DNA of 37,643 bases from Planctomycetota bacterium (lineage in GTDB: Bacteria; Planctomycetota; Planctomycetia; Gemmatales; Gemmataceae). Position 1 is the first letter of the stretch. The number at the start of each line of letters is the position of its first letter. The stretch lies in assembly GCA_016872595.1 (NCBI GenBank), contig VGZJ01000020.1, forward strand, positions 1 through 37,643, in the 5' to 3' direction. Below are positions 35,886 through 37,605 of the stretch, piece after piece. Both the position numbers and the translations under genes were made by a program. Below the pieces are notes generated by a model. The model worked only from the letters and a program-made list of their open reading frames with translations. It made no database searches and was not told where the DNA came from.

Positions 35886-36617
35886 TTAGCCGAGAGCCCC
35901 CGGCGCGCGCGCCAGCGCCAGTGCTTCTGCCAAGTCCAGTGCCCCTTCGTAGAGCGCGCGGCCGATGATGCAGCCGGGGATGCGGTCCGCCATTAGCCGG
36001 CGCACGTGCCCCAGCGCGCACACGCCGCCGCTGGCGATCACCGGCCGCGGCACCGCGTCGCGCATTTCGACCAGCGCCTCGAAGTTCGGCCCGCTCATCA
36101 TGCCGTCTTTGGCGATGTCGGTGTACACGACGGCGGCCAGCGGCGCGTCGCACACCCGGCGCGCCAGATCGACGGCCCGCACCTGCGACACGTCGAGCCA
36201 GCCCTCGGTGGCGACGTACCCGCCCTTCGCGTCCACGCCCAGGACGACGCGGTCGGGGTAGCGGTGCGCGGTCGCGCGCACCCAGTCCGGGTCGCGCAAG
36301 GCGCGCGTGCCGAGCACCGCCCAGCGCACGCCCCAGTCGAACGCCGCGGCGAGGTCGGCGTCGGTGCGCAGCCCGCCGCCGAGTTGCACCGGCACCCCAG
36401 CCGCTTCCACGATCTTGCGGATCACGGGGCCGTTCACCGGCCGACCGACCTTTGCGCCGTCCAGATCGACGACGTGAACGCGGTCCGCGCCGAGCGCGGC
36501 CCACTGCCGCGCGACCGCGGCCGGGTCGTCGCTGAAAACGGTCTGCTGTGAATAATCGCCTTGGCGGAGCCGCACGGCGCGGCCGTCGAGGAGGTCAATC
36601 GCGGGGAAGATGAACAT
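35886..36617 (-). CDS. hisA: HisA, phosphoribosylformimino-AICAR ribotide isomerase
   Basis: The product is 243 aa, full length. The first-strand Asp8 (FPAIDLLDGRAVRL), VQLGGGLRTDADL, GTRALRDPDWV, GVDAKGGYVATEGWLD and TDIAKDGMMSGPNFE match HisA, the barrel isomerase of histidine synthesis; the second catalytic Asp is in TDIAKDG. No other histidine gene is visible, so the gene is outside any his operon here. It precedes the EF-G-like gene by 46 nt on the same strand and may share its transcript. The start at 36617 gives the conserved N-terminus. Confidence 0.95.
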   Translation of the reverse strand: MFIFPAIDLLDGRAVRLRQGDYSQQTVFSDDPAAVARQWAALGADRVHVVDLDGAKVGRPVNGPVIRKIVEAAGVPVQLGGGLRTDADLAAAFDWGVRWAVLGTRALRDPDWVRATAHRYPDRVVLGVDAKGGYVATEGWLDVSQVRAVDLARRVCDAPLAAVVYTDIAKDGMMSGPNFEALVEMRDAVPRPVIASGGVCALGHVRRLMADRIPGCIIGRALYEGALDLAEALALARAPGALG

Positions 36618-36700
36618 GATCGGTCGGTCCGTGAAACTGTGGGTATTCTTCCCGGCCCGCGCGCCGAAAGCAAGCGAATTGAAGGAATCGTGAAGGGCCG

Positions 36701-37032
36701 TTTTGTAGGTCGCGGTCGAGCGAGGCCCGACGGCCAGAAGGCCAGAAGGCCATGCGGTTCTGCCAGAGGCTGTCTTCGCCCTGAAGGGGCGGGCTTCCTC
36801 CGCCCCGACCAACTGCCGGGGTGGTGCGGCGACGTCATTGCGTCCTGTAGGGACGCGCTCCCGAGGCGCGTCCCTACAGGACGCACGACAAGGAACCGTT
36901 GGCTACTCGGCCGTTGCCCGGGGCTGAGTAAGTCCGCCCGTTCAGGGCGAAAAGACACGCAAGCGGGATAAGTATTGCTCGCGGGCCGTCGGGCATCGCT
37001 CGCAGAGCCTCGCTCGACCGCGACCTACAAAA
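36701..37032. repeat. Three-layer nested palindrome with 26-bp terminal inverted repeats
   Basis: Outer layer: 36701-36726 and 37007-37032 are exact 26-bp reverse complements (TTTTGTAGGTCGCGGTCGAG start), extended by an 11-bp pair at 36725-36735 and 36984-36994. Middle layer: 36771-36792 and 36934-36957, 24 bases with one mismatch and a 2-nt gap. Inner layer: 36839-36857 and 36867-36885, exact 19 bp with a 9-nt loop. The 421-nt gap between the stop of the toroid gene (37039) and the start of hisA (36617) is almost filled by it; the short ORFs inside show no protein-like character. It could also terminate the toroid gene, whose stop is 6 nt away. Confidence 0.85.
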
Positions 37033-37038
37033 ATCGGC

Positions 37039-37605
37039 TCAGCGGGCGAACGCGGGGAGCATTTCGTTTTCGAGTTGCAGCACGATGAGCGCCTGCGCGC
37101 TGTAGTACGCGGGGCCGAAGCTGATCTCGTCCCAACTGCCGTCTTTCTTCTGTGTGTCTTTGAGTACCTTGTACAGCGGGGCGCGGACCTCGGACCAACG
37201 GAGCAGAGCCGCCGCGCCGACGTTCGGGTCGAGTTTCTTGTGCCCGGTTTCGCCGAGCGCGTAGGCCACGCGCGCGAGGGGGACCAACCCCGCGAGGGAG
37301 TACACGCCGCCCCCTTGCTTCAGGGAGGCGTAATACTGCGGCGGGTTAATGGCGACCCCGGAGTTCCCCACCCACTGGGAGAACCGGGCCGGGCGCGCGT
37401 CGAGGAGCAGCGCGCCGGCCGCGGCGTGCGCGCTCAGCCCCGGCTGCCCGTCGTTGCCGCGCGGCACCGCGCCCCCGCTCAGCGTGTAGATCACACCGCC
37501 CTGCGCGTTCGTGGCGCGCGTCAGGTAGGCGAAGCCCTTGTCGGTCAGCTCGTTCGGCACCTCGATCCCGGCCTTGCGCGCGACCACCAGCGCTTGGAGC
37601 GCCAT
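37039..37605 (-). CDS. C-terminal part of a squalene-cyclase-like alpha-toroid protein, interrupted upstream by TAG
   Basis: The open part gives 188 aa: ALQALVVARKAGI, GAAALLRWSEV, a QW-like repeat TQKKDGSWDE, and YYSAQALIVLQLEN at the end, the alpha-alpha toroid pattern of prenyltransferase/squalene-oxidase repeats. Reading the frame further upstream to the window edge gives EGSDYDDA, then TAG at 37615-37617, then STAMALQAL. DDA-x-STAMAL is a normal-looking toroid helix, so the ATG at 37605 is probably not the true start and a Trp or Tyr codon seems to have become TAG. The 5' part lies outside the window. No ribosome site precedes the ATG. Confidence 0.7.
   Translation of the reverse strand: MALQALVVARKAGIEVPNELTDKGFAYLTRATNAQGGVIYTLSGGAVPRGNDGQPGLSAHAAAGALLLDARPARFSQWVGNSGVAINPPQYYASLKQGGGVYSLAGLVPLARVAYALGETGHKKLDPNVGAAALLRWSEVRAPLYKVLKDTQKKDGSWDEISFGPAYYSAQALIVLQLENEMLPAFAR

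Follow-up and report, generated by a model that had tools for sequence, protein, structure and literature searches.

A Nested Hairpin beside hisA in a Gemmata-like Genome: Probable Insertion of a Gene-less Y1-Element Derivative in a REPIN-like Repeat

Introduction

What is a stack of three inverted repeats of different sequence, wrapped around one centre, doing between two genes of a planctomycete? The question is raised by a 332 bp locus in the window analysed here, a stretch of 37,643 nucleotides (contig VGZJ01000020.1 of assembly GCA_016872595.1) from a member of the Gemmataceae. A first-pass annotation described the three layers and offered two readings, namely separate palindromic elements inserted into each other's loops, or one long RNA hairpin. 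In this study, we propose that the locus very probably consists of two nested miniature non-autonomous elements, a REPIN (A) on the outside and a gene-less derivative of a Y1 element (C) in the central loop of A.

Results

Geometry and Neighbourhood of the Hairpin

The hairpin is situated between the minus-strand hisA gene and the stop codon of an unnamed ORF on the same strand (Table 1), which has no match in Pfam, NCBIfam or PADLOC. As first annotated, the outer arms are exact inverse copies over 26 nt, and the right end of the palindrome is 6 nt from a stop codon, a TGA on the minus strand. The other two layers had been given as 24 bp with one mismatch and one gap, and as an exact 19 bp. 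We found that the middle layer is indeed a palindrome but a larger one (36775-36818 and 36908-36951; 44 nt, 84% complementarity), and that the inner layer is exact, its length being 20 nt (36839-36858 and 36866-36885). The predicted RNA folds of the two strands were far better than those of 100 dinucleotide shuffles (z -14.5 and -15.1). The TTCACGATTCCTTCAATTCGCTTGCTTTC box, conserved across most of the genus, is a possible promoter or regulatory site.

Table 1. Features of the nested hairpin and its surroundings, in window coordinates.
Feature	Position	Strand	Description or basis
Left outer arm	36701..36726	+	TTTT flank plus GTAGGTCGCGGTCGAGCGAGGC
Right outer arm	37007..37032	-	Exact inverse of left outer arm
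Element A, REPIN-like, GTAG...CTAC ends	36705..37028		324 bp, insert included; same ends elsewhere in the genome
A inner half-arm, left	36727..36771		Type GCGTATCTGCCGAAGGC, diverged here; compared with uninterrupted A elements
A inner half-arm, right	36956..37006		Type CGCAAGCGGGATACGC, then GGCCGTCGGGC.TCGCTCGCAGAGC; compared with uninterrupted A elements
Element C (middle and inner layers), ends approximate	36772..36955		Stand-alone copies; arms match Y1-gene flanks
C hairpin H1, left	36777..36791	+	CGCCC-TGAAG-GGGCG; sequence, alignment
C hairpin H2, left	36801..36821	+	CGCCCCGACCAACTGCCGGGG; sequence, alignment
C hairpin H3, left	36840..36856	+	GCGTCC-TGTAG-GGACGC; only within C elements
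C hairpin H3, right, inverted	36868..36884	-	Only within C elements
C hairpins H2 and H1, right arm	36908..36951	-	Arm comparison
hisA upstream box	36666..36694	-	TTCACGATTCCTTCAATTCGCTTGCTTTC; just outside the element, upstream of hisA in most genus genomes
hisA	35886..36617	-	TIGR00007, PF00977
Neighbouring ORF, unnamed	37039..37605	-	Stop codon TGA (37039-37041) 6 nt from outer arm

The Outer Layer, a REPIN-like Family

The ends of the outer element read GTAGGTCGCGGTCGAGCG...CGCTCGACCGCGACCTAC. When the genome carrying the window (G000) was searched with GTAGGTCGCGGTCGAGCGAGGC, allowing up to 3 mismatches, 61 end matches (30 + 31) were obtained, as compared with 0 for a reversed control pattern. 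The copies are inverted pairs of 77-366 bp with GTAG...CTAC ends and differing interiors. The pattern is abundant in four of the 19 genomes of the genus (G000, G006, G016 and G018), and rare or absent in the remaining genomes (79 searched). Target duplications were absent in 39 of 44 copies, a frequency that random pairing of flanks reproduces. For 35 of the 44 copies, a simple coding-bias heuristic placed a predicted coding 3' end within 60 bp. We also found CTT directly before GTAG at 21 of 105 A ends (20%), against a background of 1.3%, which is a statistical enrichment and not a demonstration of cleavage. Such an enrichment is expected if a RAYT cuts at CT; the TnpAREP proteins of E. coli and S. 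maltophilia cleave at CT beside the REP in a GTAG-dependent manner (PMC8266576).

In the sister species G016, a RAYT gene lies between two near-identical A copies, which is the usual RAYT arrangement, and its product matches NF047646 (REP-associated tyrosine transposase) with 179 bits at a cut-off of 80. The family thus combines GTAG (or GT[AG]G) at both ends, two inverted REP-like arms, many dispersed and mostly extragenic copies, an enriched CT dinucleotide beside the REP with no target-site duplication and, in G016, a repeat-flanked RAYT gene, and we classified it as a REPIN family, named A. In the window's own genome, a draft of 590 contigs, the search for a gene close to the G016 RAYT found none (best match 26%); here A may be an orphan, or its RAYT gene may have been lost in assembly gaps. 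The own genome does carry a RAYT gene on contig C291 (L033 and L220; NF047646, 107 bits), which has five flanking copies of another REP, B (GTAGCCGGCCTCTGCGAGGCCGG), and is not flanked by A.

Several further observations were made on this family. In about a dozen copies (L055, L061, L069, L089, L120, L127, L131, L132 and L133 among them), the predicted stop codon of the adjoining gene is the TAG of A's GTAG end. The arms contain modules that swap, AGGCTTTGCGAGCG versus GCGGCGCTTCGCCGC and TCTGCCGAAGGC versus CCCGCTTGCG, and these often differ between the two arms of a single copy. At one locus of G006 (L117, contig C64, 1023-2185), arms of the outer family surround a 300-aa ORF, as if a REPIN loop had gained a gene; the ORF has no match in Pfam, NCBIfam or PADLOC. 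Upstream of a Y1 gene on contig C48 of G000 (L029, 1917-1958), a hairpin GTAGCCAGGGGTGGAGCGAGGCTCTGCGAGCGCAACCCCTAG has GAGCGAGGCTCTGCGAGCG and GTAG in common with the outer arm.

The Middle and Inner Layers, One Element

In the own genome, the segment 36770-36957 matches seven distinct C elements, mostly on both strands, as C is palindromic. The element is about 185 bp long, and two of the seven are situated outside A. Further copies were found in G006 and G018, and stand-alone copies occur in three species. With one mismatch allowed, the inner hairpin GCGTCCTGTAGGGACGC was found at seven places in the own genome, all of them within C elements. Since it occurs solely inside C, the middle and inner layers constitute one element, and the candidate of three separate elements was rejected.

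The arms of C align to both inverted flanks of a Y1 gene on contig C119 of the own genome (L030; E 7e-13 and 2e-9), and G006 has another Y1 gene (L118) whose flanks are the same. Because its arms correspond to both flanks, C resembles that element minus the gene. Multi-copy, with stand-alone copies and no transposase gene of its own, C looks like a gene-less derivative of an IS200-like Y1-transposase element. Comparison of copies across unrelated loci revealed compensatory changes in 17 of the 68 pairs of the C hairpin, which fits a hairpin that is either under selection or templated. Since compensatory changes would equally be expected where hairpins of single-stranded DNA are substrates of a Y1 transposase, they do not separate RNA from single-stranded DNA.

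Y1 Transposases of the Genus

The Y1 proteins of L030 and L118 match NF033573 (IS200/IS605). Both belong to the 26 of 30 Y1 proteins of the genus that have a Y---Q--HH signature, by which the C-linked transposase would fall into TnpAY1 subclass 1.2. Members of that subclass, reported mostly from Cyanobacteria and Bacteroidetes, are in general said to be without typical terminal structures (PMC6006769). In 22 of 28 such genes tested in the genus, the two C-linked genes included, the flanking inverted repeats were better than in all of 200 shuffles. Canonical IS200/IS605 ends, with one subterminal hairpin per end and not long mutual inverted repeats, were not what we observed; here each end carries several hairpins, and the two together form a long inverted repeat. 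In the literature compared, such ends are not previously linked to the Y---Q--HH group. A third kind of Y1 protein (NHVH, WT, YVLNQQ), encoded on contig C241 of G000 (L032), resembles class 3, whose members come mainly from Planctomycetes, Acidobacteria and Proteobacteria (PMC6006769).

Elements at the Centre of A

An uninterrupted A centre in G018 reads ...GCCGAAGGC-GGTC-CGCAAGCGGG... (also read GAAGGC-GGTC-CGCAAGCGGG). In the A+C composites, five in G000 and one in G018, C is located at this central point; two of the five have one outer arm diverged or missing. In 11 other A copies, the same central region is occupied by the hairpin pair B, the REP of the C291 RAYT. As both C and B are found there, other palindromic elements recur at the centre of A. 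The idea of palindromes inserted in each other's loops is therefore supported for two elements, given A without C, C without A, and C in A's central spacer. It is not supported for three, the inner hairpin having been found in the own genome only within C.

The central position shared by the inserts could nevertheless result from one ancient insertion that was then amplified, and not from repeated targeting. An A+C composite that arose once and has since spread, or been inherited, as a unit would be compatible with the two-element explanation and incompatible with recurrent loop targeting by C, and the nesting would then be uninformative on targeting. The six composites mostly have the same arm-type order, and one of them is, as judged from its surroundings, orthologous in two species, the coding flanks of its copies on contigs C205 of G000 and C867 of G018 being 85% identical over 155 bp. 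A single origin is less easily reconciled with the occupation of that central region by another family, B, in the 11 copies mentioned, or with a lone C on contig C172 that groups among the composite Cs in the tree, a placement that would fit either several insertions or an escape of C from a composite. We regard the single-origin account as a serious possibility, if somewhat short of an even chance; composite amplification or inheritance explains part of the nesting pattern.

Age of the hisA Insertion and Remaining Alternatives

In G018, the hisA contig starts within an A element located at the orthologous position, and in G006, G004 and G015 a short spacer, free of A, is found there. Given the orthologous A in G018, the A insertion at hisA is, on this comparison of loci, older than the split between G000 and G018; as the G018 contig is broken there, the claim covers A alone. 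The perfect outer arms had been taken as the mark of a young element. A young insertion was rejected, because G018 shares both the A of this site and, at another locus, an orthologous A+C composite. Of the empty sites and target duplications that had been proposed as a check, the former were recovered and the latter were at the level of random pairing. A Bacteroidales-labelled record (UW1SPNA076; L142), probably mislabelled or a mixed bin, contains a HisA 70% identical to the present one.

The hisA sites also bear on the suggestion that the locus is a single structured RNA conserved as a whole, for instance a 3' UTR element or a regulatory RNA located upstream of hisA. The strong predicted fold of both strands and the compensatory changes in C would be expected of such an RNA. 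However, the copies lie at unrelated loci, A and C are found apart, the interiors of A vary, most orthologous hisA sites of other species are without the element, and an Rfam search of the window gave no match. The whole 332 bp was not found as one conserved unit with compensatory changes, which had been named as the outcome favouring RNA; these changes were shown for C only. We consider this explanation very improbable. Ordinary MITEs moved by a DDE transposase through terminal inverted repeats, although they too would have inverted ends and many dispersed copies, are about as improbable and were rejected, since target duplications are absent, both families are found around Y1 transposase genes, the ends carry GTAG and CT features, and no DDE element with A or C ends was seen in the present analysis.

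Discussion

Taken together, the data favour the two-element explanation, in which A would be made of two REP-like arms, inverted and tagged with GTAG, and C of two inverted multi-hairpin arms of an IS200-like Y1 element, joined without the gene. The presumed RAYT of the A family still exists in a sister species. Each element would fold in single-stranded DNA, such as that of the lagging strand, and a Y1 tyrosine transposase would cut beside the hairpin, in the case of A at the CT before GTAG. Rejoining at a new site, in most cases shortly downstream of a gene, would produce no target duplication, and REP loops would be reused as insertion sites. We infer that Y1 transposases, with single-stranded DNA as their substrate, mobilise the elements in trans. 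At the nest, which lies between a gene's stop codon and the conserved region upstream of hisA, a read-through transcript would carry a very stable hairpin, and the nest may have an effect on hisA or on the upstream transcript.

Known systems resemble the nest in part. As in GTAG REPs and REPINs with their RAYTs (REPtrons), A is a dispersed, extragenic, GTAG-tagged inverted pair without target duplication and with CT beside GTAG, and two copies in a sister genome enclose a RAYT gene (NF047646). In contrast to them, it has long arms of about 45-70 nt that contain several sub-hairpins, its centre holds other elements, and no close RAYT relative was found in its own genome. In TIRtrons (TIRYT), a Y1 gene is enclosed by terminal inverted repeats that are long (PMC3733652); the C-linked Y1 gene likewise lies in long inverted repeats with self-complementary tracts and has gene-less copies (C) elsewhere, whereas its protein is IS200-like with the subclass 1.2 signature. 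Palindromes within palindromes are known from REP dimers inside larger palindromes, namely A. variabilis GTAG-15, T. roseum GTAG-23 and H. neapolitanus CGTC-1 (Di Nocera et al., PMC3733652), but in the present nest the GTAG repeat itself forms the outer palindrome, with a Y1-element derivative as its guest. REP elements also serve as insertion sites for ISPpu9, ISPpu10, ISPsy8 and other insertion sequences (PMC1525189); the guest C, however, is a gene-less 185-bp hairpin and not an IS. No report of Gemmata REPINs was found in the literature searched. The nest is a new combination, in Gemmata, of known kinds, and not a new RNA or a new system.

A broader hypothesis, which we put forward only tentatively, is that the Y---Q--HH Y1 genes of Gemmata are not solitary domesticated genes. 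They would be flanked by long inverted repeats with many hairpins and would yield gene-less miniatures that prefer the loops of RAYT-linked REPINs, so that two single-strand systems grow nested hairpins.

The present explanation accounts for a striking hairpin without a new RNA, and defines three families of repeats, A, B and C, in a Gemmata-like genome. It connects the Y---Q--HH group of Y1 transposases with terminal structures and with miniature derivatives, against the published description of their subclass, and illustrates how nesting can build very large palindromes.
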